DNA of 35,749 nt, taken from NCBI GenBank assembly GCA_018817905.1, contig JAHISS010000068.1, positions 1 through 35,749 of the forward strand, in the 5' to 3' direction. The notes beneath the pieces were generated by a model, which saw only the letters and a list, made by a program, of their open reading frames with translations, was not told where the DNA came from and did no database searches. The translations under genes and the position numbers were made by a program. This stretch comes from Nanobdellota archaeon. GTDB taxonomy: Archaea > Nanobdellota > Nanobdellia > Pacearchaeales > GW2011-AR1. This document shows, in pieces, positions 1 to 31,400 of the stretch. Position 1 is the first letter of the stretch; every line of letters begins with the position of its first letter.

Positions 1-2962
1 CGCGATAATCCACACCATATGAACTTAAATCAAAAATAACATTTTCATTTGCTCTTGCCTTAGATGTCCAGCTTGGCCCAGAGTAAGAAACAATATGCGC
101 ACCTAACGACGTGCTTTCAGGAGGAACAACAAAACTCCCGCTAAACGCATCTATAAAATTTTTTTCTGCCGTTATAATTAAACCATAAGGCAGTTCTTCT
201 TCTTCATAAATAAAATCAATATACGAATCAGGGAAAAGTCTTGACGGAGCTGCTCCACCATACGACACCAGTGTCTGCTCAACATATTCTGTGATGATGT
301 CAGATGCAATTTGTTCATAAACAGTAGAAAGGTTATCCACATCTGAATAATAATAACTTCCATTACAACCATTGTCTGCAATAGCCTTAAGAGTTATATC
401 ATCAACACCGTCTCCAAATCCAATTGCATGAACTATAATTCCATAATCTTCGCACGCATCTATTGACGCTTGGATTGCATCTTGTGTCGCATCTCCTGTG
501 TCTTGTTCATCGCAAGTAGAAGTTGCCTGCCCATCACTCATAACAACCATTGACCTGTGCCTTGTTTCTACTTCACATTCATCATTACAACCATCAAAAT
601 CTTCAAGGTTTCCGTCATCGCATTCTTCTCCGTCATTTAAAACTCCATCACCACATTCTCCGTCTAAATCGCAATCTAAAAATCCATCACAAAAACCAGG
701 GGAATCGATGTTCTGACAATTCAAGGAACCAGCTTGCCCTCCAGATTCACAAAGCTGAGCATCACGGTCACAAACTTCTCCGACCTCTGTAACAGCATTG
801 TCACAATTAGGAGTTATATCATTCAAACCCTGAACTTCTTCTAAAGAAAGTGGTTTTGTATAAATTCTGAAATCATCAATCAGCCCATCGAAGTAAGGAC
901 CACCAGAAGAATGTGTTGTATCTCCAAGACGTGGAGAATTAAAGTTAGGCATGTTTCCTGCAGGTCTATCATCTGAATCAACTAAGTTACCATCAAAATA
1001 CAACTCTACCGACGGCGCATTCCCTCCAAAACGCCAAACACCAACTACATGATGCCACTCGCCTGGTGAAAGTCCTGAAACATCCTGCTCTGTCAAATAA
1101 TCAACGTCAGAAGTGTCCTCAATCATAAATTGTATAAATCCTCTATAATCAATAACCATTGCAAACCTCTTATTATTCGAACCCGGCGAATCACCAGTCC
1201 AAGGATCTCCAACTGTCGCATCAAAAATTGTCTGCTGTCCCCAATTGTCTGCCTTAATCCAAACAGAAACACTTCCTTGCGTTGTGTCAATTATATCTGG
1301 AAGTCCAATAAAATCTCCACTTCCATCAAACTCTGCAGCATTTTCCTCCAATCCCACAACAGAAACAACATTTCCGTTAATTGCTCCATCATTACCCAAT
1401 CCACTTTCATCTGAAATTACAGCTCCTCCAAACGAAGAATCAAAGTCATAATAAACAATCAACCTCCCATTGTTTTCATTCGGCAATACAGTTCCAGGAA
1501 AACTATGCGCTGCCCTGTTAATCCCGCAGCAAATACAGGTCCATCCATATGCATCCCAACCTTCAACTATTGCCTTTAACGAATCATTATCACCTGAAAG
1601 AGGATGATAATCTTCATCTGCAGCAGACGTGCTATAACCAACCAAGCCAACTTCATTCCCGCTGTTATTCAAAATAAAATCAATAAACAAATTATTTGCT
1701 TCTTTTGCAGAATTTATCGGCCCCATCCAAACACCTCCACATTTCCCGCACCAATGTGAACTTTCATGACACTGATGCGATCCATAATACCCAACCTCTG
1801 AACACAACATGCTCCCAGACAAATCTGTCACAGAAAAAACATCAATCCTTTGTGAGATTCCTTCAGTGTAAGAAGCATTTGGCGTTCCCAATCTCAACGG
1901 AATTGTTCTTCCTTCCAATGAATCATAACTTCCCCCAAACAATTCTTTAAGAAAATCATTGTCAAAATTCAAAGTCTCCACGCCGTCTGTAGAACCCTCG
2001 TAAACAGTCACATTTCCAATATTCAAAAACGTCGTGTAATTTGTATCAAGATGCAAAGAAATATCCATTCCTGTCAAACTATTCGGAACATAAAACCCGT
2101 CATACAAATTAACCAGCCCGTCAATTCCAGGAAAACGATAGCGCTTTTGCTCGTCAATCGCCACACCACTATAACTCACTTTAATAAATCCGCCTGCAAT
2201 ATAAAGGTTTTCTCCCCTAAACTCTACAGTGTTTTCCCCAGAACTAAAGTTAGCAGTAGAAAAAGTATAATTCGCTGGCTCTGTTTCTGAAGGCGACGCT
2301 GCAAAACTTCCAACTAAATTATTGTTGACATACATATCAAAATCATTGTTAATCACAAGTTCCATTTTCCCAACTGGCGTGATGTTTCCTTCATAATCTA
2401 TCCTTGCAGAAATATCTCCGTCGCCAACATAACCTCCAAAATAAAAATAAGAAGTTGTTACATTGCTGGAAAGAAAAGCTCTTGCTGCAAATCCAGTAAT
2501 ATTCTTCCCGGCAACTATCCCAGTAATAACCTGCCGCGCAACATCAACATCCCGCGCACTTTCAAACGGCGTGTTGTTCTTAGAAAAAATTAAATCATCC
2601 TTGCCATACCACAACCCAAAATTTTCAGTTGTCTCTATCCCTCCCAAAACATCTTCTGCAAGCAGCCTCGCAATTGTAATATTTAAAATATAAAACTCCC
2701 CAATCTGCTCAAGCAGGTTCTTATTTGGGTCTCTTATCTTCCCGTTTGCAATCAGCGACCTAACATAGTCACTATCAACTTCAGAAACTTTCAACGTCGA
2801 CAAAACCTTCAAAATATCTGAATGTATGTCTGGGTCTGGCTGAAGATAATTACTCACCGGATAACTCACTAAAATAACAAAGAAAATAATTATCAAAGCT
2901 ATGAGCGCGTCAACACTAAAAAAAGCTCCTTTCTTCTGCAAAATTAAATTTTTCAATTCCAT
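1..2962 (-). CDS. Large surface protein, partial (C-terminus beyond window start): pilin-like N-terminal hydrophobic segment, von Willebrand factor A domain interrupted by LamG-like and DUF4215-like domains
   Basis: Open minus frame from ATG at 2962-2960 to the window edge, so missing from the ORF track. N-term MELKNLILQKKGAFFSVDALIALIIIFFVILVSYPVS; MIDAS-like DVFSVTDLSGSM; LamG-like ...SVSVWIKADNWGQQTIFD...YFDGLIDDFRIYTKPLSLEEVQ; CGDGVLNDGEECDDGNLEDFDGCNDEC; then SMVVMSDGQAT. Frame followed codon by codon from ~480 to ~1920 without a stop. Confidence 0.88.
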   Translation of the reverse strand, partial: MELKNLILQKKGAFFSVDALIALIIIFFVILVSYPVSNYLQPDPDIHSDILKVLSTLKVSEVDSDYVRSLIANGKIRDPNKNLLEQIGEFYILNITIARLLAEDVLGGIETTENFGLWYGKDDLIFSKNNTPFESARDVDVARQVITGIVAGKNITGFAARAFLSSNVTTSYFYFGGYVGDGDISARIDYEGNITPVGKMELVINNDFDMYVNNNLVGSFAASPSETEPANYTFSTANFSSGENTVEFRGENLYIAGGFIKVSYSGVAIDEQKRYRFPGIDGLVNLYDGFYVPNSLTGMDISLHLDTNYTTFLNIGNVTVYEGSTDGVETLNFDNDFLKELFGGSYDSLEGRTIPLRLGTPNASYTEGISQRIDVFSVTDLSGSMLCSEVGYYGSHQCHESSHWCGKCGGVWMGPINSAKEANNLFIDFILNNSGNEVGLVGYSTSAADEDYHPLSGDNDSLKAIVEGWDAYGWTCICCGINRAAHSFPGTVLPNENNGRLIVYYDFDSSFGGAVISDESGLGNDGAINGNVVSVVGLEENAAEFDGSGDFIGLPDIIDTTQGSVSVWIKADNWGQQTIFDATVGDPWTGDSPGSNNKRFAMVIDYRGFIQFMIEDTSDVDYLTEQDVSGLSPGEWHHVVGVWRFGGNAPSVELYFDGNLVDSDDRPAGNMPNFNSPRLGDTTHSSGGPYFDGLIDDFRIYTKPLSLEEVQGLNDITPNCDNAVTEVGEVCDRDAQLCESGGQAGSLNCQNIDSPGFCDGFLDCDLDGECGDGVLNDGEECDDGNLEDFDGCNDECEVETRHRSMVVMSDGQATSTCDEQDTGDATQDAIQASIDACEDYGIIVHAIGFGDGVDDITLKAIADNGCNGSYYYSDVDNLSTVYEQIASDIITEYVEQTLVSYGGAAPSRLFPDSYIDFIYEEEELPYGLIITAEKNFIDAFSGSFVVPPESTSLGAHIVSYSGPSWTSKARANENVIFDLSSYGVDYR

Positions 2963-3438
2963 ATATGCAAGTTCATCGTTGTGACTTTATTATTGTAAAC
3001 AACTGCCCGCGTGAGTTTCACCAAGTTCTCGCTGCCACCTGAATCCAGCCCAATGCCATTATCAGTCTCATCACCAAAATAAACAAAAAAATTATTTCTA
3101 ACTCTAAATAAAGACTTAGCAGTCGCATAATCTAAAGCACTAAAATTTCCCACCTTGCTTTCATTAATTTTATCTCCGCTAAGCAGACCAATCCGAATAA
3201 CATTGCTCGCATCCCAATCCACCGGACTTCCTTCAGAAAGCAAACTGTCTGCTATCAACTCTCCGTCGTGCTGCAGCTCCTGAAATTTCTCTTCCTCTCC
3301 GCCAGGATAATTCAACGCAAACATATAAAAAAATACAATTCCTGTTAAAAAAATTACCATTGCCACAATTAAATCAAAGCCCCATGCTTGCGCCAGATTT
3401 GCTTTCACCATCTTTTTCTTTTCACTAAAACAAAACAT
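2953..3438 (-). CDS. Pilin-like / single-TM secreted protein
   Basis: 161 aa ORF, N-terminal hydrophobic helix AQAWGFDLIVAMVIFLTGIVFFYMFALNY; overlaps the start of the downstream VWA gene by about 10 bp. Actual start may be MVKANLAQ. Confidence 0.75.
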   Translation of the reverse strand: MFCFSEKKKMVKANLAQAWGFDLIVAMVIFLTGIVFFYMFALNYPGGEEEKFQELQHDGELIADSLLSEGSPVDWDASNVIRIGLLSGDKINESKVGNFSALDYATAKSLFRVRNNFFVYFGDETDNGIGLDSGGSENLVKLTRAVVYNNKVTTMNLHIWN

Positions 3439-3483: not shown

Positions 3484-3565
3484 CGCCGACGACAGGATTC
3501 GAACCTGTGAGCCCCGAAAGGCCCAGATCTCCAATCTGGTGCGTTAACCACTCCGCCACGTCGGC
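3484..3565 (-). tRNA. tRNA-Ser (anticodon GGA)
   Basis: Minus strand GCCGACG...CCAGA-TTGGAGA-TCTGG...ACAGG-TTCGAAT-CCTGT-CGTCGGC-G; complete acceptor, anticodon and T stems, long variable arm, discriminator G, anticodon GGA. Confidence 0.93.
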
Positions 3566-3665: not shown

Positions 3666-4445
3666 TCACTCAAAAGCCCGCGAAACTGACTTCTTCCCAA
3701 CAACAATTCCATTTTTAACAACTGAAAAAGGAAAAACCTCCCGCGAATGATTTGTTCCCCTCATCTTAAGAACTTCCAAATATCTCTGTCTCTCTTTCTC
3801 ATCCCTAACAAAATAAAAAACCAATATCGAGTCAACTTCAAACTCAATAGCTCGCGAAGTTTTTTTGTTTTTGTCAAATGGTTCTTCTTCAAGCGTCAAC
3901 AACGACGTGCAGTCCCAATCGCGAATCATACCAAACAAAGAAAGCGCCGCCGCCCTCTGCGAAAGTTCATCTTCAAAAAGCAAAGCAAACGAAGTTATGC
4001 TATCAATAACTATCCGTCTGATTTTTTTATTCAGGATAATGCTCTCAATCGTTCCACCGCCCTCTTCAAGCATAGTCTTAACTTTTATCGGCGTGTATTC
4101 CAAAAAGGTAAAAAGCCCTTTCTCCTCGTAAACCTTTAAGTCCCACCCCAACGACAGCATATTTTCATAAAACTGCGCTTTTTTTTCTTCAAACGTAACG
4201 TACAAACATTTCTCCCCTTTTTGCATAGCACTAATCAAAAACTGCGTAGCAAAGATTGTCTTTCCACTTCCCGACCCGCCAACTAAAAGATTAGTAGAAT
4301 CCTTAACAAATCCTCCGCCGATAAGTGAATCAAATTCCCCAATCCCCACAGGAACCCTATCAACTCCGCTGGCACTTTTTCCCACAACTTTCGGCAGAAC
4401 TTTCTTCCTCACTAACATACGCGTCCTCTTTTTCACCTTCTTCAT
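3666..4445 (-). CDS. KaiC/RAD55-family RecA-like ATPase (possibly archaellum FlaH-like)
   Basis: Walker A GGSGSGKT, Walker B-like RRIVIDSITS, N-term VPVGIGEFDSLIGGGFVKDSTNLLVGGSGSGKTIFATQFL typical of the family. Confidence 0.88.
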   Translation of the reverse strand: MKKVKKRTRMLVRKKVLPKVVGKSASGVDRVPVGIGEFDSLIGGGFVKDSTNLLVGGSGSGKTIFATQFLISAMQKGEKCLYVTFEEKKAQFYENMLSLGWDLKVYEEKGLFTFLEYTPIKVKTMLEEGGGTIESIILNKKIRRIVIDSITSFALLFEDELSQRAAALSLFGMIRDWDCTSLLTLEEEPFDKNKKTSRAIEFEVDSILVFYFVRDEKERQRYLEVLKMRGTNHSREVFPFSVVKNGIVVGKKSVSRAFE

Positions 4446-6502: not shown

Positions 6503-7492
6503 CTACCCAAAAGAACTCACAAAATATTTGAGCAAAAACCACCGCGAAACAAAGAACACAAGCAAAGCAATAACCACCAGCACAACCATAAACTTCATCC
6601 CTTCCCTCTCGCTCCCCTTGCTAACCAAGCCTATAATCAGCGAAGCAAAAATACACATTGCAATAATAAAAGATATGCAAAAGTAAAAAATAAAAGCAGA
6701 CGAAATATTAATGTCTGTAATCGTAAAAGGCAGATTCACAGTTACATCTACTCCTGACACTCCTGCAAACATCTCTGCCATTATCTCAACAAGAACAGAC
6801 GAAAGCGCGAACAACAGCGGCGCCCCAACTGCAACAGCAAAAAAAATAAAAATAACATACATCAAAACATTTGAAGCCGCCCTTTTGTTAACAAATATTC
6901 TCTCTCGCATATTATTCGAAGTCTTTTCCAGCAGAACAGAAAGATTTCCTCCAGAACGAATTCCAGAAATTATCAGCTGAATAGTCTTGCGGATTTCCTC
7001 TGACTTGATTCGTTTCCCCATATCCTGCAGCGCCTCGCTTATTTCCCGCCCAGTCAAAATATCCTTCCCAACATTCAGAATTTCCGCGTCAAGCGGCGCA
7101 AACTCTTTTCGCGCACTGATTATCAACGCCCGGTCAACTGTCATTCCTGCCCGCAGATTAGAAGACATCAAAGAAATAAAATCAGGAAAAGAAAGTTCCA
7201 TTTTCTTGATTTGATTGTGTTCATCCAGTTTCTTCTTCGTAAAAACATAAACAAAGAACAAAACAATCGCCCCGCTAAACAAGAAAAAAGATTTAACAGC
7301 ATCCCTCGTCAAAACAAAAAAAATCGCAGTCACAATCAACATCCCAATGAGGAAAAAAACAAAAATCTTTTGCATACTCAACTTTGCCTTTTTCTTTATC
7401 TTCTTCTCTTTTTCCTTCCTTTTTGCTTCCAGCTCAGCAAGCGTTTCAAACGCTTTTTTCTTCTCTTCAGCAGATTTATCTTTTGTTTTCAT
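6503..7492 (-). CDS. Type II/IV secretion system F (TadC/GspF-like) membrane protein
   Basis: 329 aa; FPDFISLMSSNLRAGMTVDRALIISARKEF...SGIRSGGNLSVLLEKTSNNMRER plus C-terminal TMs; adjacent to second copy and ATPase. Confidence 0.85.
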   Translation of the reverse strand: MKTKDKSAEEKKKAFETLAELEAKRKEKEKKIKKKAKLSMQKIFVFFLIGMLIVTAIFFVLTRDAVKSFFLFSGAIVLFFVYVFTKKKLDEHNQIKKMELSFPDFISLMSSNLRAGMTVDRALIISARKEFAPLDAEILNVGKDILTGREISEALQDMGKRIKSEEIRKTIQLIISGIRSGGNLSVLLEKTSNNMRERIFVNKRAASNVLMYVIFIFFAVAVGAPLLFALSSVLVEIMAEMFAGVSGVDVTVNLPFTITDINISSAFIFYFCISFIIAMCIFASLIIGLVSKGSEREGMKFMVVLVVIALLVFFVSRWFLLKYFVSSFG

Positions 7493-7493
7493 T

Positions 7494-8429
7494 TTACAGT
7501 AAACTTGGTCTGATTGATTTTACAACTCCTAAAAATAAAATTTGAATTATTACAACTGCGGCAAACAATGCTAAAAACATTACTTTTGTAATCAGCGAAG
7601 GAAGATTAATCAACGAAGAGATAATTGTCAAAAAAGTTATAGCAAGCGCTGGAAGAATAACTGAAGAAAGCATATAAAACATAATCGCTGGATTTAATTT
7701 GTTTCCATAATGTTGTATTTGTATAAACTGCTCCTCTCCGAGCGAATGAACTGTATCTTCGATAACAATAGAAATATCGCTTCCAGCGCGCATACCGTTG
7801 CTGATTTGCCACAGCGCGCGCCTGAAAAACTCCGACGGATTCCTCTTGCCAAGATTTTCAAGCACGTCAATCTGCGGCATGCCTGCGTTTATCTCTTTCA
7901 CAGCTTTCTTAAATTCCTGGCTCAACTCGCTGTAATCTGCAGCAGAGATATTTATCATTATCGTAAACAACGGAACTCCTGCGTTCAACTGCACAAGCAT
8001 GTCCTGCAAAGCAGGTATCAGATTTTTCTCAATCTCCTTTTGCTTCCGCGAATTATATACTGAAGGATACACAGCTCTGCTGAAAAAAACAAAAAACCCG
8101 AAAAGAAACGAAAGTCCGAAAGAGAAAAGAAACGCGTTATTAATACCAAGCAAAATAAGCGCCGTCGAAGACAGAACAAACAAAATAATAAAAGAAATAA
8201 AAAACCCGCTGGTGCAAACTGCCAAATATTCTTCCCGAGTTGCATCAGCATCAGCATTCTTAAGACTGTCCCCAATTTTCGATTTATTCTTGTAACCGAC
8301 AAATCTCTTAAAAAAACCAGACCTTTTTTTCAGCTTGTCCAGAGAACCAAAAGCAAACGGCACTCTAAATATCAGTTTATTCGATTTTTTCTTAAAGTTA
8401 AATAACTTAAACTTTTTTTTAGATTTCAT
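7494..8429 (-). CDS. Type II/IV secretion system F (TadC/GspF-like) membrane protein
   Basis: 311 aa; LIPALQDMLVQLNAGVPLFTIMINIS...QISNGMRAGSDISIVIEDTVHSL; TM helices; 1 bp from flanking ORFs. Confidence 0.87.
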   Translation of the reverse strand: MKSKKKFKLFNFKKKSNKLIFRVPFAFGSLDKLKKRSGFFKRFVGYKNKSKIGDSLKNADADATREEYLAVCTSGFFISFIILFVLSSTALILLGINNAFLFSFGLSFLFGFFVFFSRAVYPSVYNSRKQKEIEKNLIPALQDMLVQLNAGVPLFTIMINISAADYSELSQEFKKAVKEINAGMPQIDVLENLGKRNPSEFFRRALWQISNGMRAGSDISIVIEDTVHSLGEEQFIQIQHYGNKLNPAIMFYMLSSVILPALAITFLTIISSLINLPSLITKVMFLALFAAVVIIQILFLGVVKSIRPSLL

Positions 8430-8430
8430 T

Positions 8431-10293
8431 TTACTTCGAAATAACTTCCCTCTTGTCTCTGCTGCTCTGGAGAACTTTTCCTTCAGGTTTTTTGTTAAGA
8501 ACCTCGTTTTTCTTCTTAACTGCCCAGTCCTTGAAAATCGCCCCAGGATTATTCTGCTTTATAGCACTCAACAATAATTCCTTATTCCTATAAAACAAAT
8601 TCATCACCTTGCCGATTTCTTCCAAACTCCGAACGTTGTTTTTAATAAGCCACGTCAAAATGTTCTGCTTTGCCTTCAAATCTTCTTGAATTTCTGTTTG
8701 AGACATTCCAGTATTTCTGCTAATGTCTTCAAAAAAACGCGAGCTTTCGCTGTGCCTAACAATCTCGTCCCTGTCCGCAATCAAGCGATATAAAATATTT
8801 GCCTTCGCGCCGCTCCGTTCAGCCTCAACCTCTGCAAGTTGAAGGATTCTTCTCCTGCCTCTTCTTCTGTCTCTAAACATCACAACATTAAGATTAATCG
8901 CCTTCAACAGATTCGGAGGAACATTTAACGGAGGATTTATCAGACGAGAAATAGTTTCTGGCGCAGAGTCAGCGTGAACAGTAGAATAAACACTATGCCC
9001 TGTATGCATTGCCTCAAACAAAACCATTGCTTCTTTTTCTTTCCTCATCTCACCAAGAACAATTCTATCCGGTCTCATTCTCAAAGAATTAACCAATAAA
9101 TCCAACATTGAAACTTCCCCCTTGCCTTCGGGATTAGGAGTCCTTGTAACAAGCGGAGTCCAATACAAAAAGTCAGGCAGCATCAGTTCCCGAGTGTCTT
9201 CAATACTGATTATTCTCTGATTCGGTGGAATAAACGGCATGCATGCGTTCAAAAAAGAGGTCTTCCCACTTCCGGTTCCACCTGAAATCAAAACGTTCAT
9301 CTCATATTCAATCGCGAGCCACAACAACGCCGCAATTTCCAAATTGCAGGTTTTATTGTTAACCATGTCAACTATTGTAAAAGGATCGCGGGCAAATTTT
9401 CTTATTGTAATTGTATTCCCCTTAGTATTCACCGGATAAAGCACCGCATTAACCCTGTCCCCGGTAACTAAATGCGCATCAAGAAGAGGACTCAGCACAG
9501 TAATCTGCTTTCCAACCCTCCTCGCAATGATATTTGAATAATTAATTATCTTCTCCTCCTTCTCAACTGTGATGTTTGTCAAAAGCCAGCCATACTTTTT
9601 GTAAAAAACTCTTATCGGTTCTTTCGCAGAAGGGATTACAATTTCCTCAAGATTCGGATCAGCAATCAAAAATTCTATCTGTCCGAGGCCAAGCATTTCC
9701 TGCATCAAAGTCCCAACCAAAAAATCTTCAACATCTTTTTCTGTATGGGGAAGTTTTTCCTTCAACAATTTTCTGGCATCATCCATAAATCTTTTCTTTA
9801 TTTTCGAAAACAAAGAAGGGTCTGTAAGTTCTTTCATGCTGACAGTTGTTGCAGAAATAAGCTCATTCCTTATCTCCCCAAGAAAAATCGAGGTCGGGGC
9901 GCTGATTTCTGGAATGTAAAGGTTGTAAGTTATTCCTGATTCATCTTTCCTGATTTCTGTTTCAACATGCGCACCGTCAACAACAAGTTCATATTTTTCA
10001 AGAACATTCCCGCTCCCCTTGCGCTGAACTTTACGAACTTCTCCTTTCATCTGAAAAACTTTTTCTGCAGCAGGTGCAGCAGGTTTAACAACCGCAGGAG
10101 CTTTTGCTGCAGCAACAGGTTCCTTCACAACCTCTTTCGGTTTCTCCTGAACTGGTTCTGCTGGTTTTTCCACTCTTTTTTCAACCTTCTGAGAAGGATC
10201 ATATTCATGTTCGCCCTCTTCTCCAGGCAAAGGAGGCAGTTCTGGAAAATCTTCGACAAAACTTCCTTTTTTCCCTGATTCCATTTTATTCAC
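8431..10293 (-). CDS. Type II/IV secretion system ATPase (GspE/VirB11/ArlI-like)
   Basis: 620 aa; ISGGTGSGKTSFLNACMPFIPPNQRIISIEDTREL; VNSLRMRPDRIVLGEMR; AMHTGHSVYSTVHAD. Confidence 0.95.
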   Translation of the reverse strand: MNKMESGKKGSFVEDFPELPPLPGEEGEHEYDPSQKVEKRVEKPAEPVQEKPKEVVKEPVAAAKAPAVVKPAAPAAEKVFQMKGEVRKVQRKGSGNVLEKYELVVDGAHVETEIRKDESGITYNLYIPEISAPTSIFLGEIRNELISATTVSMKELTDPSLFSKIKKRFMDDARKLLKEKLPHTEKDVEDFLVGTLMQEMLGLGQIEFLIADPNLEEIVIPSAKEPIRVFYKKYGWLLTNITVEKEEKIINYSNIIARRVGKQITVLSPLLDAHLVTGDRVNAVLYPVNTKGNTITIRKFARDPFTIVDMVNNKTCNLEIAALLWLAIEYEMNVLISGGTGSGKTSFLNACMPFIPPNQRIISIEDTRELMLPDFLYWTPLVTRTPNPEGKGEVSMLDLLVNSLRMRPDRIVLGEMRKEKEAMVLFEAMHTGHSVYSTVHADSAPETISRLINPPLNVPPNLLKAINLNVVMFRDRRRGRRRILQLAEVEAERSGAKANILYRLIADRDEIVRHSESSRFFEDISRNTGMSQTEIQEDLKAKQNILTWLIKNNVRSLEEIGKVMNLFYRNKELLLSAIKQNNPGAIFKDWAVKKKNEVLNKKPEGKVLQSSRDKREVISK

Positions 10294-10835: not shown

Positions 10836-10944
10836 GTATATCTTAAAACAAGAACCTTTAAAATATTAACTGTCTTTCATGTTCTGTTGAAAAAGTCAGA
10901 AAAGGAATGTGCTATTTTTTCAACAGTCAAATATATCAGAAAAG

Positions 10945-11358
10945 ATGCAAAAAGAAAAAAGAGGTCAAATTAGCACAGAGTATGTTATAATAATTTCGTT
11001 TGTCCTGTTCCTTGTGCTGAGCACTCTCGGCATTGCGTTCTTTTATTCCGCTCAAATTCGCGACGCAATAAAATTCCACCAAATAGAAAGTTTCTCACAA
11101 AAACTAACCTCTCTGTCTGAATCCATTTACTACTCTGGAGAACCGTCGAGAACAACAATGACTGGCTATCTCCCAGAAGGAATAAACGAACTTCAGATTT
11201 TAGATTATTTCATCGTTTACAACGTCTCAACAAACAGCGGCAACGCAATAACAGCTTTCAGGAGCAATGTTAAATTAAGCGGAAGCATATCTCCCTCGAG
11301 CGGACTGCGGAAAATTTACCTAAATGCCACCGAAGACAGCGTCGTGGTTTATGGGTAA
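10945..11358 (+). CDS. Archaeal class III signal peptide type IV pilin
   Basis: MQKEKRGQISTEYVIIISFVLFLVLSTLGIAFF: prepilin peptidase-type KRG/QISTEY motif. ATG at 10945 preferred over track start 10909. Confidence 0.85.
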   Translation: MQKEKRGQISTEYVIIISFVLFLVLSTLGIAFFYSAQIRDAIKFHQIESFSQKLTSLSESIYYSGEPSRTTMTGYLPEGINELQILDYFIVYNVSTNSGNAITAFRSNVKLSGSISPSSGLRKIYLNATEDSVVVYG

Positions 11359-11389
11359 GATGAACGCACCACAAACAGAAAACACAGAA

Positions 11390-11615
11390 AAATAAAATGT
11401 TACAAAAAACTAACCCTCAAAAAAATTTAATAAAACTCCCAATCGCAGAAGATAAAATCAAAAGACAATCGTTATCAACAACCCCTATTCTCCCATTTGA
11501 TTCTGGTTTATGTGACAACCTTGAAGTGGGGCGGGGCGACGCAAGAAAATATATTTTTACCCAATCACAGCAAGCCGGGGAGGTTTCCCACCAATTAAAT
11601 TCCAAGGCATCCTTG
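11390..11615 (+). repeat. Dispersed intergenic repeat, copy 1
   Basis: Shares TTAATAAAACTCCCAATCGCAGAAGATAAAA...AAAGACAATC...GATTCTGGTTTATGTGA-AA-CTT...GGGGCGGGG...CAATTAAA with copies at 25255-25452, 27240-27437 and 23160-23251. Confidence 0.7.
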
Positions 11616-11625
11616 AATTGATGTA

Positions 11626-12018
11626 ATGAAAAAAAACAAAGCCCAATCTGCAATTGAATTTCTCATCCTTGTAGGAGCAGTTTTCTTTTTTGTCGTTACC
11701 CTAACTGGGATATTTCAACAAAACATCAGCGAAAAAACAATTGAAAAGCGAAACTTCGAAATTCAAGAATTAGCACTGGCAGCACAAAACGAACTCAACA
11801 TCGCAGCAAAAGCTACCGACGGCTATCGGCGGGAATTCTACCTTCAAGAAAAAGTCGCAGGAATTGACTACGAGATAAATTTAATCGGCAGCTTTGTCTA
11901 CTTCAACACATCTGACGGCAGGCACACCATAGGAATTCCAGGCCAAAACGCCACAGGAAACTTCGTCAAAGGAACAAATGTGATTGAAAAACAGAATGGG
12001 ATTATTATTTTGAATTAG
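11626..12018 (+). CDS. Archaeal class III signal peptide type IV pilin-like protein
   Basis: MKKNKAQSAIEFLILVGAVFFFVVTLTGIF: KAQSAIEF pilin motif plus hydrophobic helix. Confidence 0.83.
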   Translation: MKKNKAQSAIEFLILVGAVFFFVVTLTGIFQQNISEKTIEKRNFEIQELALAAQNELNIAAKATDGYRREFYLQEKVAGIDYEINLIGSFVYFNTSDGRHTIGIPGQNATGNFVKGTNVIEKQNGIIILN

Positions 12019-12625: not shown

Positions 12626-15600
12626 CTAACCAAACAATCCCTTCAACCAATCCCAAAACCCTTCACCTTCAGGAGACAGCTCCATCTTTTCTTTCTCAAT
12701 AAAACCACCAGCACGCTGCTCAGGAACTGGTTCTCTTTGAGGCGCTTCTCGTGAGACGCTTCCGTTGTCTTCCACCATATCTTTTTCACAACACAAATAT
12801 CCAGGATAACCTTCATCAGCACATTCATCTCCAGAAGCCAGTATCACATTACAGTCATCCGGCAACATACAAACACCACCCAACTCGCTGCACGTCAAAG
12901 GCATCGTCCTAACGCAACATTGATATTCTGAACCATATTCTTGCTCACACCAAGCATCTCCTTCTGGAACATAATCCTGTCCGCAACCATCGCTTCGGCA
13001 TTGGTGTTGTGGTTCACAAGACATAATTGGTTCCTTCAAACAAACAAACCCGTAGTCGTCGTCATCCGAAACGAGAAATTCCTGCAACTGGCAATTGCTT
13101 CCGTTCATTGCCTGCGTTCCACAAGAGTCATAAACAACCTCGTCGCAAACAGGATGAACGAAATGAAATCCCGTATCATGCCATAGTTTATGTTCAGTTA
13201 CTCGCACAAATCCGATACAGCCATAATAATGCCCCGGATAACCTTCGCACACTTCACCAGGTCTCAAATGAAAACTATCGCAAACCGAATTCAACTCCAA
13301 ACTGTTTGCAAGCCAGCCATCTTCGGATTCACAATATGAAACAGCTTGGCCATACGTCAAATTCATCTCATATCCGTTGAAAACACATTTATCAATTTGC
13401 GGAAAGTATTGCCAGTTCAGTGGACATATTTTTGGCGAACTTTCGATTTTATGTAAAGAAGGATAATGTCCGTCTTCTTGATACCAAACATTTTCAAAAT
13501 CCCAACCAACATAAGTATCGGCAGGTCTTGGAACAGAAGTCATTTCTTCTGTTGTGCGACCTTCTCCACTCCCATACGGGCTCTCTGTTTGACCGGAAGA
13601 ATTAACGTCCCAATATGAGAAAATTGTTTCGCCTAAACTACAACAACCTACCAAACCACCAATCAAACCATCACAATCTAAACAGCTTACCAACCCTGAT
13701 GAATATGAATTAATTATTTTTCCTCTGTAATCGTCACCAATTAGCCCGCCACTGCAATAGCTCAATGCACTAACCTGTGTATGCGAATAAGAGTTTTCTG
13801 TGGTTAAATTCCACGAATCTCCAACTAATCCCCCCACATAGTACTCTCCAATTACAAGTCCAGTAGAAGATGACTGCGTGATTTGAGAATATGCTGCATG
13901 CCCCACCAGCCCACCAATTCGAATGTTTCCTTCCACCCTTGCATCTTCAATTGATACTTTATTGACTACACTCTCTCCCTTAATCGAACCTGCTAATCCA
14001 CCAACAAAATCATCGCCCTTTAAGGTTATATTAATTAGCGTTAAATTTTTAATGACTCCACCATCTATCTCCCCAAATAAACCAACTTTATCTTTAGTTG
14101 TCTGATAAACAAAATTTGAAATCTTATGGCCGTTTCCGTCGTAGGTTCCATAAAAATTTTCAATTGGCTCAAAGTTCTCTAAATCAGACAAATCAATATC
14201 GCAAACCTGAACATAACTTCTTTCTGGGAAATCTCTAATTTGGTCAAATTCTTCGGGTGTACAGATCTCAATAAGACATACTCCGTCTGAACAAGGACAG
14301 GAAAATCGAGTGTGAGTATATACGTCCCCATTGCAGCGATACTCTATTAAAACAGTTCCATTAATAATACATCTATCTGTTGCATTTGCCCTATTCTCCA
14401 ACTCAACAGTGCCCTTCAGATAAGGATTAATTCCATCAGGATATTCTAGCGTTGTATCTGAATCTTGGCATTTTACACATGCTCCATCTAAGCAAGCCAA
14501 GGGACACCCATACAACTCATAAAGGAGATCACCCTGCCCATTACATCGCCATTCTTGCAAGTCTCCCCAGAAAGAGCATTTTTCTTCTCGGTCAACATAA
14601 TAGTCGCCGTCACTAAAAGAAGCTACCCCTCTTACTAAACTTTTTTCATAGTAATCTCGCCCCCCATCTGTATCAATACAGTCTATCATATTGAATGGGA
14701 AGGTTTCACTATTATCTTCCGCTGAGTCACATGATGGATCGCCCAAATCAATTAGTCCATCTCCATCGTTATCAATTCCATCATTGCATTCTGTAGTTCC
14801 ACAACGGAATCCATTAGCCATATACTCACTTGGATCGTTATCGTTACAATCCCCTATGAAATCGTTGCATCCCGGTGGGCAATTATCTGGCTTTGTTGGA
14901 GAAATCCCCCAATTACAGTAACCATCGCCATCATTGTTTTCACAAGTTACTATTCTTGGTACTAAGTCGCTAATTGCTGGATCGAATAAACTATAAGTCC
15001 ACTCAAAATCCTCAAAAGGAATCATTATTTCACCATAACCCTCTTCTCCCCAATTATCCCCCCAACTATTTTTGAATATCCAAATGTCTTCTCCCTGACT
15101 GTCATTATATCCGATTAAAGCCATCGCATGCCACCAGTCCCAAATGCCACCTGAAACAGAACCTTTTATAATTCGAGTTTTGAGAAATTCCTCGTTTTGA
15201 ACCATTGAATTAAACTCTTCCTTGGCAGCTATTTTCATTTTTTCATCAGGATCAGCACATTTGTTAACACAAGATTCATCACTTGCACTGTAGGGAAAAC
15301 AGTTTTCGTCTACAACTCCTTGTGACTTGATATAATCCAGCGCGTAACCCGGTTGACCCCCATCACAACTGCCCCCTCCACTACAGGACAACACATCTTG
15401 CTCTGATAAATCCAGGTCAATATGCTGATTGAAATAAAGATTTGTTAAGAGTTCAGTGGCCCCCACAGCAGCAAATGCCCAACAGCTTCCGCAACTGCCC
15501 TGGTTCTTGACAGGAGTATTCCAATTTTCTCCGTGGACGTTTCTCCAATCCCAACTTTCCGGAAGTTCGGAAGGAGAAAAAAGCACCTTGCCCGATGAAG

Positions 15601-16498
15601 ACTGTTCGTTTTCTTCTTTATCAATTTCCTGTTCTTCCGCGATTATTTCAGGTTCTTGTTCTGGCAGTTCTTGATGAGTTTTTGGTACCTCTCGTGTTAT
15701 CTCTTCTTGCATTTTAGGTTTTGTTCTACTTGGAGAAACTTCAAAAATTCCTCCTTTATAATACTCAAACCCCTGTAAGTTAGGTAATTCATCTGGAATT
15801 TGGCCATTGCCCCCCAACAACTTTCTTTTTTCCTCATAAGTAAAACCAGAAACAGATGTCTTATCCGGCATCCACCTCAAATTTTCTCTAGCAACTTTCT
15901 CCTGCCAAGCCTCAACTTTCAAGTTTTCCTGATTATCTAAGTAAACCTCATTCGGCAAAAGATCCTGAGAAGATTTTGAACTCAAGGGAAGAACTTCAAT
16001 AGAATCTATCCGCAGCAAGGCATCCTTAATCTCGACTGCAATAGATTTAATTTTCTTCCCGTCAAAATTACACGTCTCCTCACAGATAGACAAAACCTCG
16101 AAGTCCTCACCCAAGACCAGCGAATCACTTCCGAATATTAAATGCTTTCTTCCGAGTTCATCAACAGCAAGTACTCTTGCATAACCCGCCGGAGAAAAAA
16201 TTTCCCCGTCCCCTGAAAAAGTCACAGAAGAAACAGGTTCATCAAAATCAAGAAGAACAATTTCGCTTTTCTCAAAAGCTCCATAAACTTCAGTCTTAAC
16301 AACGCCCTTATCAGGAACAGTGAGATATGAAAGACTTTCCCAATACATTAGCAGATTACTTGAAAAAATATACGCTTGGTCGTATTGCTCAGAACTCGGA
16401 CCCAACCCCACATCCTCCTCTCCAACAAAATATTCCAACCCTGCAAAAACTGCGACAAACAAAATAATCAAAACAATCCCAACAACCTCTTTTCTCAT
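12626..16498 (-). CDS. Secreted papain-family (C1A) cysteine protease with MopE/Ca-binding-like, GLUG-repeat and C-terminal Cys-rich modules
   Basis: 1290 aa; NQGSCGSCWAFAA, WWHAMALIGYND, FKNSWGDNWGEEGYG catalytic motifs; CNDGIDNDGDGLIDLGDPSCDSAED; GGLVG repeats; N-term MRKEVVGIVLIILFVAVFAGLEYF; C-term CC-containing repeats and FWDWLKGLFG. Confidence 0.92.
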   Translation of the reverse strand: MRKEVVGIVLIILFVAVFAGLEYFVGEEDVGLGPSSEQYDQAYIFSSNLLMYWESLSYLTVPDKGVVKTEVYGAFEKSEIVLLDFDEPVSSVTFSGDGEIFSPAGYARVLAVDELGRKHLIFGSDSLVLGEDFEVLSICEETCNFDGKKIKSIAVEIKDALLRIDSIEVLPLSSKSSQDLLPNEVYLDNQENLKVEAWQEKVARENLRWMPDKTSVSGFTYEEKRKLLGGNGQIPDELPNLQGFEYYKGGIFEVSPSRTKPKMQEEITREVPKTHQELPEQEPEIIAEEQEIDKEENEQSSSGKVLFSPSELPESWDWRNVHGENWNTPVKNQGSCGSCWAFAAVGATELLTNLYFNQHIDLDLSEQDVLSCSGGGSCDGGQPGYALDYIKSQGVVDENCFPYSASDESCVNKCADPDEKMKIAAKEEFNSMVQNEEFLKTRIIKGSVSGGIWDWWHAMALIGYNDSQGEDIWIFKNSWGDNWGEEGYGEIMIPFEDFEWTYSLFDPAISDLVPRIVTCENNDGDGYCNWGISPTKPDNCPPGCNDFIGDCNDNDPSEYMANGFRCGTTECNDGIDNDGDGLIDLGDPSCDSAEDNSETFPFNMIDCIDTDGGRDYYEKSLVRGVASFSDGDYYVDREEKCSFWGDLQEWRCNGQGDLLYELYGCPLACLDGACVKCQDSDTTLEYPDGINPYLKGTVELENRANATDRCIINGTVLIEYRCNGDVYTHTRFSCPCSDGVCLIEICTPEEFDQIRDFPERSYVQVCDIDLSDLENFEPIENFYGTYDGNGHKISNFVYQTTKDKVGLFGEIDGGVIKNLTLINITLKGDDFVGGLAGSIKGESVVNKVSIEDARVEGNIRIGGLVGHAAYSQITQSSSTGLVIGEYYVGGLVGDSWNLTTENSYSHTQVSALSYCSGGLIGDDYRGKIINSYSSGLVSCLDCDGLIGGLVGCCSLGETIFSYWDVNSSGQTESPYGSGEGRTTEEMTSVPRPADTYVGWDFENVWYQEDGHYPSLHKIESSPKICPLNWQYFPQIDKCVFNGYEMNLTYGQAVSYCESEDGWLANSLELNSVCDSFHLRPGEVCEGYPGHYYGCIGFVRVTEHKLWHDTGFHFVHPVCDEVVYDSCGTQAMNGSNCQLQEFLVSDDDDYGFVCLKEPIMSCEPQHQCRSDGCGQDYVPEGDAWCEQEYGSEYQCCVRTMPLTCSELGGVCMLPDDCNVILASGDECADEGYPGYLCCEKDMVEDNGSVSREAPQREPVPEQRAGGFIEKEKMELSPEGEGFWDWLKGLFG

Positions 16499-19036: not shown

Positions 19037-22000
19037 CTACTCAAAAAACTTTTTCAACCAATCCCAAAACCCTTCACCTTCAGGAGAAAGCGCCATCTTT
19101 TCTTTTTCAATAAAACCTCCACCGCCACGCTCAGGAACTGGTTCTCTTTGAGGCACTTCTCTTAAGATTCTTCCTTTATCTTCTTCACAACAATAATATC
19201 TAGGATAACCTTCATCAGCACACTCGTCTCCAGAAGCCAATATCACATCACAATCCTCGGGCAACATACATTCCCCACCTAATTCACTACATGTTAAAGG
19301 AGAAGTTCGAACACAACACTGATATTCTAAACCATATTCTTGCTCACACCAAGCGTCTCCTTCTGGCACAGGGTCTTGGCCGCAGCCATCGCTGCGGCAT
19401 TGGTATTGTGGTTCGCAAGTGGATGATTGACATTTTCCCGCACTGCTTGCTTCATATATCCTCTGAATCTCATTCTGAGAAAGGACACTGTTATACAAAG
19501 AAACTTCGTCAATTAAACCGTCAAAATAAAGAGTGCTAGGGGATGGAGTTCCGCCAATAAACAAGGGCTCGTCGTCTACTAAAATCGGAACATTAATCTG
19601 TCCGATACTCGATAATCCAGCAATCTCTCCATTAATATACAGATTACCCTCGCCAGTTAATTCGTCGTACGTACACGCAACATGATTCCACGCTTCTAAA
19701 TTCAAAAGAATTTCACCACTACCTGCAACCTCCAACAAGCCAGCAGAAGTTTCAAAATAACAGAATAAATCTTCTTCTGGGTAATCATCAATAAACATGC
19801 CATAAGAATAATCTTTTAAGACAACAGTCCCCTCACCAGTAAAATTATTTGATTTTATCCATGCTTCAATTGTCACAGAAGTAACATCTAAATTGTCCGC
19901 ATCCGGAATTTCTACGTAATCATCATAACTGTTGAAAGAAAATGCCTGTTCAGCCCTGCCTTCTGCAAAACCCACACCACCCTTTAATTCTCCATCATTC
20001 TCATCTACAACATCTTCTGCATTTCCTTCTCCAGGCCACCAACTTACTATTCCAAAAGATACGGAGGCGCATTCAAACAAAGCATTATAATTAACTCTTA
20101 AGAAAGCAGGATTGTAATCATTCATATCATCAACCCAAAGCGTATTTGTTTTATCCAGATCAATAACTTCATCAGAAATATCATGTCCTTCTCTAACTCC
20201 GAACGTGGTAAATCCTTCCCTGTTCAAGAAGTTTAGTCCTTCATCATTTAGAACAATTTTACTCTCTTCGCCTAACGCCATCTCTGATAAATACAAATTT
20301 TCAGACAAGAGAACTGGATTATCCACTGTGCCACATTGATTGAAATCTTCGCCAGAAAGAAATAGGGGTGATTGCTGTGTAGACTCTACGGCAGATATGT
20401 AATGATTCCCGTCATCATCATCTGATTCGATGGAAATAGGAAAAACAACAAGTTCGGTTGAGCTTATAGTCATTTCATCAATTAATTGAGAGGTGTCAAA
20501 AGATAGAAACAGCCTACTCGCCTTAATAATCTCTAAAGTTTGATCTCTCATAACTCCCACTTCAAATATATTTTGTGCGTCTCCCTGCCCTGCATCATGA
20601 ACACTATCCCAATCATCTACGTCGTTTGTAGTTTTCCGAATGCTACCACTTCCTAAAAAATTGTGCATTATTTCTAAACTGCACGTTCCGTCTAAATTAT
20701 AACTTCCCCCATAATTACAGACAAATTGACTGCATTCGCTAACATCTAACTGACACCCAGCACTACAATTCAAAATGCCCCCGGCATGTCCTAAACTCTC
20801 GCAAGTTTCACCATTAAAATAAATTCCATCGCATTCTTCCCCAAATTCAATTATCCCGTTACCACAATTAGAGTTCTGAACCAATATCATAGACATATCT
20901 TCACTTGACATTCCATCAATATCATAACCTATTAACTTCAAATAATAAAGATCATTTTCATAAGATATAGAATCAAACAGATGGATGGTTTCGTCTTCCT
21001 TCTGATTTGTAGAAATTGAAATCAGGTACCACTCATTTATCAAAGGGACAAATTCGCTGAAATTTGATTCTTCACTAAACTCAAAAGTGTCTAAATAAAT
21101 ATCATCCATCTCTAACGCTTTCTCTAAACTTCCTTTCCAAGTCTCTCCCTGTAGAAACCCGCTCAATTCACTTTCAGTAATTAAATCTAAATCGATAGCA
21201 GATCTAAAAAATCCCTTGCTTACATACAACTCATAATGATCAAAACTATCAGCCATGGCGGTGCCAATTATTTCTTCCTGCCCAACAATTATCCCGCCAG
21301 TCTCGACAATCGAAATAGGTGGCTTTTCAGAGAATACAGAATTCAATGCATCAATCCTCCCGTAACCTTCACGGTTTGGAGAAATATAGACTGTATGTTC
21401 AATAGCTCCTTCCCTTAAGCTGTGTTGTATTTCTCTTGGAGACCAGCCAGGATGTGCTTGTTTTATTAAAGCCACTAAACCAGATACATGTGGTGTAGAC
21501 ATTGAGGTGCCTGACTTGTACTCATATTCTCCTTCTCGGCATAGATTAAAATCATCGCTATAAGGAACTGCTGCGCAAATCATTACCCCATGAGCAGTAA
21601 CATCAGGTTTTACAATCCCAAAACTCTCTCCAAAAATCGGACCTTTTGATGATGATTGTGCTAAAAAATCGTTTTTGTCAGAGTTTCCAACAACGATTAT
21701 TTCTTTTGACATTGGACTGCCAATAGTCATAGCAGACTCACCACTATTACCTGCAGAAGTAACTGCAACAACTCCGACCTGAACAGAGTTGTCAAAAGCA
21801 TTCGACAAAATATCGTTAGGACCGCATATGCCGCTATACCCTCCAAAATAAACACAAGGCATGCCTGCACTCATACTAATAATATCGAGGTGATCAGAGA
21901 AACCCCCATCTTGGTTAGGATCAACACTCCAATCAACCGCTCTCAAAATGGTGTCTGTAAAAGTATGGCGACTCGAAACTGAGACTTTCAATGCATAAAT

Positions 22001-22789
22001 TTTCGCACCTGGAGCAACACCATTAAACCCTTCATTTTCTTCAACAAGGCCATTGCCATCCCAGTCACCCTTCCCCGCCGCTATAGAAGCAACATGAGTT
22101 CCATGCTCACCGCCAGCCATTGGATCAGGATCATCATCACCAAAATCCCACCCCCCAACAACCTTCTCACAATCCCCTGCCAAAAATTCTTCCGTTGTGC
22201 AGTTCCCTAAATCCGGATGGGTGTAATCAACCCCAGTATCAATAATACCAATTGTAATACCTTCTCCCGTAAGATTTCTCCCGAAATTATCTTGCATCTG
22301 CCAAACGTCATCTGCGTTTATCAAAGGAACAGACTCATTCAAATTAAACTCCAACGGATAGTTCGGAACAATACGCAATACTTCGGGCTGGTTTTTCAAA
22401 TAGTTTAGTTCTGCTTTGGTCACATCTTTAATGAAGATTGCATTCAAGACATTCTTAACAGCTCCCACAGTTTTCCCTTTTTCGGAAAATCTGCTTAATT
22501 TAGTTCTGAAAGAATTCTGTTCCGCTTCAATCGTATTTCTTTGCTGTACCAGTTTTGATTCGACGTTTATCTCTCTGGATTTTTCAAGTGAAACTTTTTT
22601 TTCTATAACGCTCTGCTCCCTAAGCTGCACGATATATTCTGCATTGCTGCTGCTTTCGAGAACCGTGCCCTCTCTTGCAGAATATTTTATCTTAGGAAAA
22701 AACATCTCGTTATCTAAAGAATATTCCAACCCTGCAAAAACTGCGACAAACAAAATAATCAAAACAATCCCAACAACCTCTTTCCTCAT
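19037..22789 (-). CDS. Secreted subtilisin-like (S8) serine protease with I9-like propeptide, LamG-like domain and C-terminal Cys-rich module
   Basis: 1250 aa; GIIDTGVDYTHPD, GEHGTHVASIAAG, TSAGNSGES, SGTSMSTPHVSGLVALIKQAHPGWSP; LamG VTIEAWIKSNNFTGEGTVVLKD...LYFDGLIDEVSLYNSVLSQNEIQRIYEA; shared N- and C-terminal cassettes. Confidence 0.93.
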   Translation of the reverse strand: MRKEVVGIVLIILFVAVFAGLEYSLDNEMFFPKIKYSAREGTVLESSSNAEYIVQLREQSVIEKKVSLEKSREINVESKLVQQRNTIEAEQNSFRTKLSRFSEKGKTVGAVKNVLNAIFIKDVTKAELNYLKNQPEVLRIVPNYPLEFNLNESVPLINADDVWQMQDNFGRNLTGEGITIGIIDTGVDYTHPDLGNCTTEEFLAGDCEKVVGGWDFGDDDPDPMAGGEHGTHVASIAAGKGDWDGNGLVEENEGFNGVAPGAKIYALKVSVSSRHTFTDTILRAVDWSVDPNQDGGFSDHLDIISMSAGMPCVYFGGYSGICGPNDILSNAFDNSVQVGVVAVTSAGNSGESAMTIGSPMSKEIIVVGNSDKNDFLAQSSSKGPIFGESFGIVKPDVTAHGVMICAAVPYSDDFNLCREGEYEYKSGTSMSTPHVSGLVALIKQAHPGWSPREIQHSLREGAIEHTVYISPNREGYGRIDALNSVFSEKPPISIVETGGIIVGQEEIIGTAMADSFDHYELYVSKGFFRSAIDLDLITESELSGFLQGETWKGSLEKALEMDDIYLDTFEFSEESNFSEFVPLINEWYLISISTNQKEDETIHLFDSISYENDLYYLKLIGYDIDGMSSEDMSMILVQNSNCGNGIIEFGEECDGIYFNGETCESLGHAGGILNCSAGCQLDVSECSQFVCNYGGSYNLDGTCSLEIMHNFLGSGSIRKTTNDVDDWDSVHDAGQGDAQNIFEVGVMRDQTLEIIKASRLFLSFDTSQLIDEMTISSTELVVFPISIESDDDDGNHYISAVESTQQSPLFLSGEDFNQCGTVDNPVLLSENLYLSEMALGEESKIVLNDEGLNFLNREGFTTFGVREGHDISDEVIDLDKTNTLWVDDMNDYNPAFLRVNYNALFECASVSFGIVSWWPGEGNAEDVVDENDGELKGGVGFAEGRAEQAFSFNSYDDYVEIPDADNLDVTSVTIEAWIKSNNFTGEGTVVLKDYSYGMFIDDYPEEDLFCYFETSAGLLEVAGSGEILLNLEAWNHVACTYDELTGEGNLYINGEIAGLSSIGQINVPILVDDEPLFIGGTPSPSTLYFDGLIDEVSLYNSVLSQNEIQRIYEASSAGKCQSSTCEPQYQCRSDGCGQDPVPEGDAWCEQEYGLEYQCCVRTSPLTCSELGGECMLPEDCDVILASGDECADEGYPRYYCCEEDKGRILREVPQREPVPERGGGGFIEKEKMALSPEGEGFWDWLKKFFE

Positions 22790-28434: not shown

Positions 28435-31400
28435 TCACCCAAACAATCCCTTAAACCAATCCCAAAACCCTTCACCTTCAGGAGAAAGCCGCATCTCCTC
28501 TTTCTCAACAGAAACTCCGACACGTTGCTCAGATGCTGGTTCTCTTTGAGACGCTTCTCGTGGGACGCTTCCGTTGTCTTCCACCATATCTTTTTCACAA
28601 CAATAATATCCAGGATAACCTTCATCAGCACATTCATCTCCAGAAGCCAATATCACATTACAATCATCCGGCAACATACAAACACCTCCTAACTCGCTAC
28701 ACGTCAAAGGCATTGTCCGAACACAACATTGATAATCTGAACCATATTCTTGCTCACACCAAACATCTCCTTCTGGAATAGGATCTTGACCGCAGCCGTC
28801 GCTGCGGCATTGGTGTTGTGGTTCGCACGGCACTAGCACATCGCATTCAAACACAGGATACTGCCCGTCTTCCTGGCACCAAACATTTTCAAAATCCCAA
28901 TCAACATAAGTATCGGCAGGTCTTGGTACAGATGTCATCTCTTCTGTAGTTCTGCCTTCACCACCATCACTCCAGTCTGTTCCAGATGAATTAATATCCC
29001 AGTAAGATGAAACTACTTCTGTATCTGAATAACCAGCCTCAATGATTAAGCCACCACCAGAACCTACATCCCCTGTAGAGTATGAATTAATAATATCCCC
29101 TGGATTAAGTTCTCCAACCAATCCCCCACCATAAGAACTTGAAACTTCCACATTTGCATAAGAATTTAAAACCATTACACCTTCCCCGACTCCCACTAAA
29201 CCTCCTACTGTGTCTCCCCCATCTATCGCACCATCCACAGATACTTGGGAAATAAACGTCCAAAAAGACCGCCCGACCAACCCTCCAGTTTCATCACCAC
29301 CGACCAAATTAATATTCCTCATCTTAGTATTCTTAATAGTCCCGCCGTGAGACAAGCCAACCAAACCCCCCAACTCGTATACACCATTTGAAAAGTTAAT
29401 ATTTTCCAGCCAAACATTAGAGATAATGCCTCGGAACACATTCCCAAAAAAACCAACCCTCTCTCTATATCCATTAAAACTAACATTGGATATCTTAAAC
29501 CCGTTACCATTATACGACCCCTTAAACCGAGAGTCCATAGCAATTGGCTCAAATTCCCCCCACCCAGATAAATCAATATCGCAAACCTGAACATAATGGT
29601 AATCCAGATTATTTCTCACGTTGTCAAGATCCTCGGCTGTACAAATTTCTATGTCTTCATAATCACATGATGAAGAACAACCATCTCTATCTAATACATT
29701 TCCATCATCACATTCCTCTCCTGTCTCTCTTTTTCCATTACCGCAAATCCTGAATTCTTCCCATGCTAACATTGGATAATCCCCATCAGACTGAAGCCAA
29801 ACATTTTCAAAATCCCAACCAACATAAGTATTCTCAGGCCTTGGTACCGAAGTCATCTCTTCTGTTGTGCGACCTTCGCCACCAGCGCTCCAATCTGTTC
29901 CAGATGAATTGATATCCCAATAAGAGGATATTATTTCTAGCTCATAACCTTGCATGGACTTATTTTGTCCAATCAAACCGCGGCCCAAAATATTCCCATT
30001 TGTAATCCCAACAGAATATGAATTGTTAATTGTACCCGTCCCCGCTACAAGACCGCCAACTAACCCCCCCACATGTTCACCTGTAGAAAGTCTTACATCA
30101 GAATGAGAGTTCTCTATTTTACTGTCACAACCACAGGTACGACATAAATCACCAAAACTTTCCACTAAACCGCCCAAAAAAATACCCGGCCATTGTGTAT
30201 TCACTTCTCCAACAGAATACGAACTCCTAATTATCCCATCGCACATATCTCCAACTAATCCTCCGGCATGGCCTTCAATCACAATGTCTGCAGCAGACTT
30301 TTCAATCGTACTCCTATAAGAATAACCTACTAATCCTCCAACAGTTATAACACCGCCACCTTCAATAAATCCAGATACAGAAACCCCACTGATGTTTGCA
30401 TACATGGCTTCCCCTACCAATCCTCCCCTGAAATTTACATATTGTGCCTCTAATGTAATGTTTTCAAGTTTAAGGTTCTTAACTTCTCCATTTTTTATTA
30501 GTCCAAATAAACCACTATACCAATAAGAACTGCTCTGAAATAGATTTGATATTTTATGGCCTTGTCCATCGTATAAACCGGAAAAGTGAACAGGGCCTAT
30601 GTCAACAGAACGTATCGGTTCAAATTCGCCCCATTCAGATAAATCAATATCACAAACTTGAATGTAATGGTAGTCCAAATTACTCCTCACATTATCAAGG
30701 TCCTCTGGTGTACAAATTTCTATTGGTGGGCGTAGTGTTAATAACACATGAACATCAATAACCTGGTCTTCAATAACTTCCTCAGTTATTATCTCATCAG
30801 AGTAAAATTTCCTTGTTAATTTAATCTCGCGCTCCCCTGTTTTCAGCCCAATAACTCTAGGTGTCTCCCCCCTGTAAACAAACTCCTGAGTAATTTCATC
30901 CTTAACATAAACTCCTGCTCCAGATGGTTCAGATGTGACATTCAAATATCCGATAGGATACATCAACAACCCGCAATTCTCAAAAATGCTTTCATTAGCG
31001 TCATCACAATCTCCAATAACACCATCACATGGTGGACAATTGTCTGGCTTCACACCAATACCCCAGTTACAATACCCATCTCCATCATTATCATTACATA
31101 ACTTCTCTGGAGGATCCGACAAAAGAGGTTGCGGCTCTTCAACCGCATAAGCAAACCATGAATCAATACCAGAATCGCCCATTAAAATTTTAAAGTAGCC
31201 GTCCTCCCCCCAACCAGTTCCCCAGCTATTTTTCACAATCCAATACTCCATTCCATCATACATTCCCCAGCCAACAATAGTCACTGAATGATCTCCCTCC
31301 CGGCGGCCAGTTACATGAAAATAAATTCCTTCACTGTACACTAAAAAATCCTCATAAATTTCCATCCCAACATTGACAGGCCCGTATTCCATAATTGTCT

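Follow-up and report, generated by a model that had tools for sequence, protein, structure and literature searches.

Pilin-linked VWA domains that are split by extra domains are already known, as are VWA domains that carry arms. In CpaL of Caulobacter, the pilin-linked VWA occupies residues 148-203 and 384-626 and is split by a beta-domain insert (residues 204-383) (PMC12607857), and in RrgA, GBS104 and Mfa5 extra subdomains (ARMs) are inserted into VWA loops (PMC7835359). In S. sanguinis, the pilin-linked VWA protein PilB binds protein ligands and the pilin-linked ConA-like lectin PilC binds glycans, both being adhesive (PMC8179133, PMC9934059). The VWA proteins linked to archaeal type IV pili have been discussed mainly as regulators (Makarova et al. 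2016, PMC4858521). Our search of the literature outside subscription journals found no description of the archaeal family analysed here, none of a LamG domain nested in a VWA, and none of the alpha3-betaD loop as a recurrent insertion site.

We analysed a contig of a Nanobdellota archaeon (JAHISS010000068.1, 35,749 nucleotides, here called the window). Its pilin-like VWA gene is a single open frame on the minus strand (2962..2, 987 aa) whose 3' end is open: the window takes in the complete contig, which stops inside the gene. The C-terminus of the protein is absent from the window; the orthologue in genome G375 is complete. The original prediction had described, without stating the strand, a VWA split by inserted domains at positions 290-1850 in one continuous frame. 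This interval corresponds to residues 372-891 of the minus-strand protein, and the frame is indeed uninterrupted. The coordinates of the features are collected in Table 1.

Table 1. Features of the VWA gene and of the neighbouring pilus locus, in window positions.
Feature	Position	Strand	Evidence or remark
VWA pilin-like protein	2..2962	-	family profile matched to position 708/867; last ~160 positions beyond contig end
N-terminus KKGAFFSVDALIALIII...	2861..2935	-	pilin-like hydrophobic helix; Asp at +5 if Gly-Ala cleavage
Stalk, residues 36-370	1853..2857	-	C-terminal part beta-rich (AF2 of no-insert orthologue L034)
VWA first half, residues 372-488	1499..1849	-	betaA, alpha1, betaB, betaC, alpha2, alpha3 (Pfam, AF2)
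MIDAS DLSGS, residues 380-384	1811..1825	-	sequence; D 105, S 105, S 104 of 111 family members
MIDAS Thr475 then CICC	1526..1540	-	T in 100/111; Cys columns 101, 88, 100 of 111
310-aa insert, alpha3/betaD, residues 489-798	569..1498	-	profile split, no-insert orthologue alignment, AF2
LamG / ConA-like domain of insert, residues 502-716	815..1459	-	PF13385, 4qvs match
Cys-rich segment, residues 719-800	563..808	-	final 33 residues = DUF4215 / TIGR02232 repeat
VWA second half, residues 801-890	293..562	-	betaD with MIDAS Asp810 (MSDG), alpha5, betaE, alpha6, betaF, alpha7
Small pilin-like protein, directly upstream of VWA gene	2953..3438	-	kept beside the VWA gene in most related loci whose flanks were examined
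KaiC-family ATPase	3666..4445	-	PF06745 E 1.1e-55
Two TadC/ArlJ-type platform proteins	6503..8429	-	T2SSF E 2.5e-19 and 3e-14
TadA/ArlI-type secretion ATPase	8431..10293	-	T2SSE E 1.5e-35; FlaI and TadA models
Two more small pilin-like proteins (RGQISTEYV..., KAQSAIEFL...)	10909..12018	+	conserved in related loci

The N-terminus of the protein is pilin-like and conserved in the family, with the consensus KKG.fFs.DAllA, in which the Asp is invariant. A Pfam search of this region matched no pilin or class III signal-peptide family, and no TadE/G-like domain at E up to 1. The stalk was predicted by AF2 mostly with low confidence ahead of residue 285 (L034 model).

A domain parse with Pfam splits the VWA round the LamG and DUF4215 domains. 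VWA_2 matched residues 417-506 (profile 22-105 of 107), and a second VWA match, at residues 803-883, covered the second half of the profile only (105-173 of 174). Between them lies a full-length Laminin_G_3 domain (PF13385, residues 547-711, E 9.4e-23, 81.5 bits against a gathering score of 27.6, profile 2-151 of 151), and the closest solved sequence to the insert is 4qvs, an S-layer domain-containing protein (insert residues 14-228, E 1.1e-13). The first VWA half with its DLSGS and T475-CICC motifs, the full LamG inside the VWA and the resumption of the VWA after the insert, at the MSDG that holds D810, were all found where the original prediction had put them. Its DUF4215-type Cys repeat stands through the NCBIfam model of this type of repeat, TIGR02232, which passes its cut-off at residues 768-800 (31.9 vs 20.8 bits), and not through PF13948 itself, whose match (residues 768-796, 20.3 bits) is under the 27-bit cut-off. 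The MIDAS (DxSxS, T, D) is complete in the window protein and conserved among the 111 family members (D 105, S 105, S 104, T 100, D 104). Together with the orthologues described below, these matches put the split-VWA arrangement far beyond chance.

Most of the 111 members also carry TCxCC at the MIDAS Thr (Cys 101, 88 and 100). Together with the Cys conserved after MSDG (83 members) and ahead of the final strand (81), these residues surround the metal site with an unusual Cys cluster.

The AF2 model places both VWA halves in one core, with pLDDT mostly 80-93 either side of the insert and with the canonical VWA order of elements (betaA-alpha1-betaB-betaC-alpha2-alpha3-[insert]-betaD-alpha5-betaE-alpha6-betaF-alpha7), so that the second half completes the VWA and the halves do not form two independent domains. 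The order of elements is identical in the AF2 model of the no-insert orthologue L034, where the alpha3-betaD link has 5 residues vs 314 in the window protein. Compared with solved VWAs, the L034 model gives target TM-scores of 0.7-0.8; structural neighbours include the pilus or surface VWA adhesins Mfa5, S. sanguinis PilB and LapA, and SpaC and Mfa5 are among the matches of the no-insert orthologue. The model of the window protein was made from an alignment of four sequences, including three no-insert orthologues; the window's second LamG was kept out because it misaligned when added. Since only four sequences were alignable, confidence is low for the insert and much of the stalk, and since the alignment contains no-insert orthologues, model and orthologues count as concordant but not as separate lines of evidence. 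From VWA topology, not from coordinates, we infer that the insert leaves the fold at the pole facing away from the MIDAS, because the MIDAS Asp ends betaD at the top of the sheet and the insert sits just before betaD.

Orthologues of both kinds, with and without the insert, were recovered. The close relatives that lack the insert (L005-L013, L034-L037) can be aligned to either flank of it and bridge the gap with a few residues. Together with the Pfam split and the AF2 core, the two kinds of orthologue support the nested insertion inside a VWA fold that had been proposed. The LamG-Cys cassette is found in six other genomes of the same family (G375, G492, G453, G493, G497 and G417), and the G375 orthologue, from the same genus, carries the same insert and is 56% identical over its whole length. 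All seven cassettes can be aligned with one another, mostly with the entire Cys segment. One of these genomes, G497, has a tandem (L171, contig C36) of a no-insert VWA pilin (820 aa) and a copy with the LamG-DUF4215 insert (1172 aa). A mobile-element origin was rejected, the repeats round the insert being only of chance length, and no intein-like family occurs among the Pfam matches of the window VWA protein.

The adjacency to a type IV pilus locus claimed in the original prediction is borne out by the TadA, TadC, KaiC and pilin genes of Table 1: the secretion ATPase, TadC-type platform proteins and pilins that together mark an archaeal type IV pilus locus all lie here. Largely the same set (TadA, two TadC, KaiC, three small pilins) accompanies the VWA gene in related loci, and the pilin-like VWA protein is widespread across the phylum in this conserved setting. 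A tRNA-Ser (GGA) gene lies within the pilus locus between the KaiC and small pilin genes (3484-3565, minus strand). Elsewhere in the window, three proteins of ~1250-1290 aa (12626-16498, 19037-22789 and 28435-32244, minus strand) have near-identical N-termini (MRKEVVGIVLI...), similar C-termini (...GEGFWDW...) and differing middles, which by eye comprise a papain-like protease plus GLUG-type repeats, a subtilase plus LamG, and papain-like plus GLUG-type repeats plus DUF4215, respectively. They look like a set with swapped middles.

Our best inference is that the VWA protein is an adhesin that displays ligand-binding domains on the surface of its VWA. In an archaeal type IV pilus of the TadA/TadC kind, the gene product would be a large minor pilin that probably sits at the tip. 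Its N-terminal helix would anchor it in the filament, and the beta-rich stalk would raise a VWA head with an intact MIDAS. With the LamG (a ConA-like lectin) and the Cys-rich repeat threaded through the alpha3-betaD loop, one polypeptide would have two binding surfaces: the metal-dependent VWA face would take protein ligands, and the LamG face, at the opposite pole, most likely glycans. That the MIDAS is conserved and the gene sits in a pilus locus speaks for a functional, metal-dependent head placed at the tip or close to it. By analogy with PilC, whose ConA-like module binds glycans from a pilin, the most likely role of the nested LamG is to supply a face for glycan binding; against this reading, some LamG domains are not lectins. 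We consider it likely that the protein is a pilus-tip adhesin whose VWA head serves as a scaffold for exchangeable ligand-binding modules, and such a head may take part in the choice of partner cell or surface. In related archaea the alpha3-betaD loop, and less often other VWA loops, holds other modules or none, so that the modules of the scaffold would be gained, lost or exchanged.

The family was surveyed with a profile built from 61 short members and scanned against all fetched homologues; the tree set comprised 111 non-redundant members, the long ones fetched deliberately, and one more insert carrier is an open fragment. The alpha3-betaD loop (profile positions 495-509) holds inserts of 160-755 aa in 28/111 members, a count that is not an estimate of frequency because the sample was enriched for long homologues on purpose. 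Seven inserts occupy other VWA loops: three after DLSGSM (in the distant members L071, L072 and L073), one near betaB-betaC (a MAM domain), two after MSDG (L057 and L065) and one at alpha6/betaF (a LamG). According to Pfam, inserts contain LamG in L048, L068 and L072 (twice), MAM in L067 (E 5e-26), and weak galactose-binding matches in L049 and L069; the remaining ones have little or no Pfam content. The members of the largest insert group have in common a repeated W...GxNVIAVEL...FDLEL signature, which we take to be a galactose-binding-like jelly roll. In L072 (genome G014), LamG inserts are present at two VWA loops (profile 412 and 499), and their 54% identity over 85 residues suggests that the module may have been copied from loop to loop within one gene. 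The alpha3-betaD loop is a recurrent insertion hot spot in related archaea, and this variable loop is a good candidate for the way these cells change their attachment target.

The homologue L127 (G104) keeps the pilin-like N-terminus and has ~245 unrelated residues in place of the VWA, followed by the shared C-terminus; ORFs of 655-668 aa in G347, G198 and G118 have N-terminal matches and lengths like that of L127. L175 (G382:C16) is a run of ORFs whose proteins have a VWA of the same subfamily plus DUF4215 repeats but nothing that matches the pilin-like part.

The same inserts could be read as a passive spacer or shield, the LamG and Cys-rich repeat adding bulk or stability and binding no specific ligand. 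Both would tolerate insertion, their N- and C-termini being close together; at the distance of the alpha3-betaD loop from the MIDAS, inserts may be neutral; and several close relatives lack the insert. We think this unlikely, given that the recurrent modules (LamG, MAM and probable jelly rolls) are mainly carbohydrate- or protein-binding folds and that, even where cassettes have diverged to 24-48% identity, most of their LamG-Cys architecture is retained. It is also conceivable that the head is a mechanosensor rather than mainly an adhesin, reading pilus tension and being tuned by the conserved Cys near the MIDAS: PilY1 and CpaL have been proposed as VWA mechanosensors of pili (PMC9210963, PMC12607857), and the CxCC motif by the MIDAS Thr is family-wide. 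Ligand choice explains the exchange of surface modules better than force sensing does, and we regard sensing as the main function as quite improbable; the two functions are not exclusive. Finally, the contig does end within the VWA gene, but an assembly chimera that erroneously joins unrelated domains is ruled out by the same in-frame arrangement in six other genomes and by no-insert orthologues that align continuously over the junction, and two domains that do not complete one VWA are, given the single AF2 core, next to impossible.

In the backbone tree the seven carriers of the cassette do not form a clade (7 changes; AU p 2e-43), and a single gain would need 11 losses; a single vertical origin with the carriers as one clade was rejected on the backbone. 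The tree of the inserts does not conflict with the order in which the backbone places the carriers (AU p 0.145-0.91), with two scrambled orders rejected, so that free movement of the cassette between backbones is not needed. The stalk alone rejects the carrier clade (p 9e-67) but the VWA alone does not (p 0.16). In G375, the stalk is sister to that of a no-insert relative (support 98) and the VWA is sister to the window VWA (support 96), the other pairing not being rejected by the VWA columns (p 0.33). As a control, four scattered seven-member sets were tested on the VWA columns, which rejected three; because the fourth was not rejected (p 0.08), head exchange between stalks is only suggested. 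One may tentatively picture the VWA head as an exchangeable cassette holder, with whole heads and the modules nested in them recombining between pilin stalks, the alpha3-betaD loop as a plug-in site and, as the outcome, lineages that switch attachment partners by exchanging a domain nested within another folded domain, a picture that we hold to be possible but doubtful. The LamG module might in addition be coupled mechanically to the MIDAS through betaD.

The VWA fold tolerates repeated large inserts in one loop, at the pole that by topology is opposite the metal site, and repeated insertion in a single loop is a useful rule for nested-domain evolution and for protein engineering. For the recognition of partner cells by DPANN-type archaea, the protein is a pilus subunit of wide occurrence whose variable site is defined, so that comparisons or swaps of heads can put attachment specificity to the test.

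Compared with the known systems, CpaL/TadG of the Tad pili (Caulobacter, Aggregatibacter) are like the window protein in their pilin-like N-terminus, split VWA, MIDAS and related machinery. The CpaL insert lies between DxSxS and the MIDAS Thr, whereas that of the window protein consists of a LamG and a Cys repeat and lies after the MIDAS Thr helix, at alpha3/betaD; the CpaL-like site, just after DLSGSM, is the one used by the distant members L071, L072 and L073. PilY1/PilC1 of bacterial type IV pili, to which roles in adhesion and the sensing of surfaces have been ascribed, are VWA proteins of the pilus tip with no known insert of the kind described here, and the C-terminal beta-propeller of PilY1 was matched neither by the window protein nor by L034 and L036, two orthologues that are complete. 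The pilus-tip adhesins RrgA, GBS104, SpaC and Mfa5 carry their VWA on a beta-domain stalk, as does the window protein, but on pili that are sortase-assembled or type V, unlike the window's. ARM2 of RrgA, GBS104 and Mfa5 is placed at the fourth strand/fourth helix, beside the MIDAS, and the insert of the window protein before the strand of the MIDAS Asp; the ARM2-equivalent site, after MSDG, is occupied in the archaeal family only in L057 and L065. In the pilus-tip VWAs already known, the arms flank the MIDAS, whereas the insert described here would emerge at the opposite pole. The PilB and PilC pair of S. sanguinis also brings these two functional modules, VWA and ConA-like lectin, to minor pilins of type IV: there, two proteins carry the modules in series and the PilB arms flank the MIDAS, whereas in the window protein one module is nested in the other.
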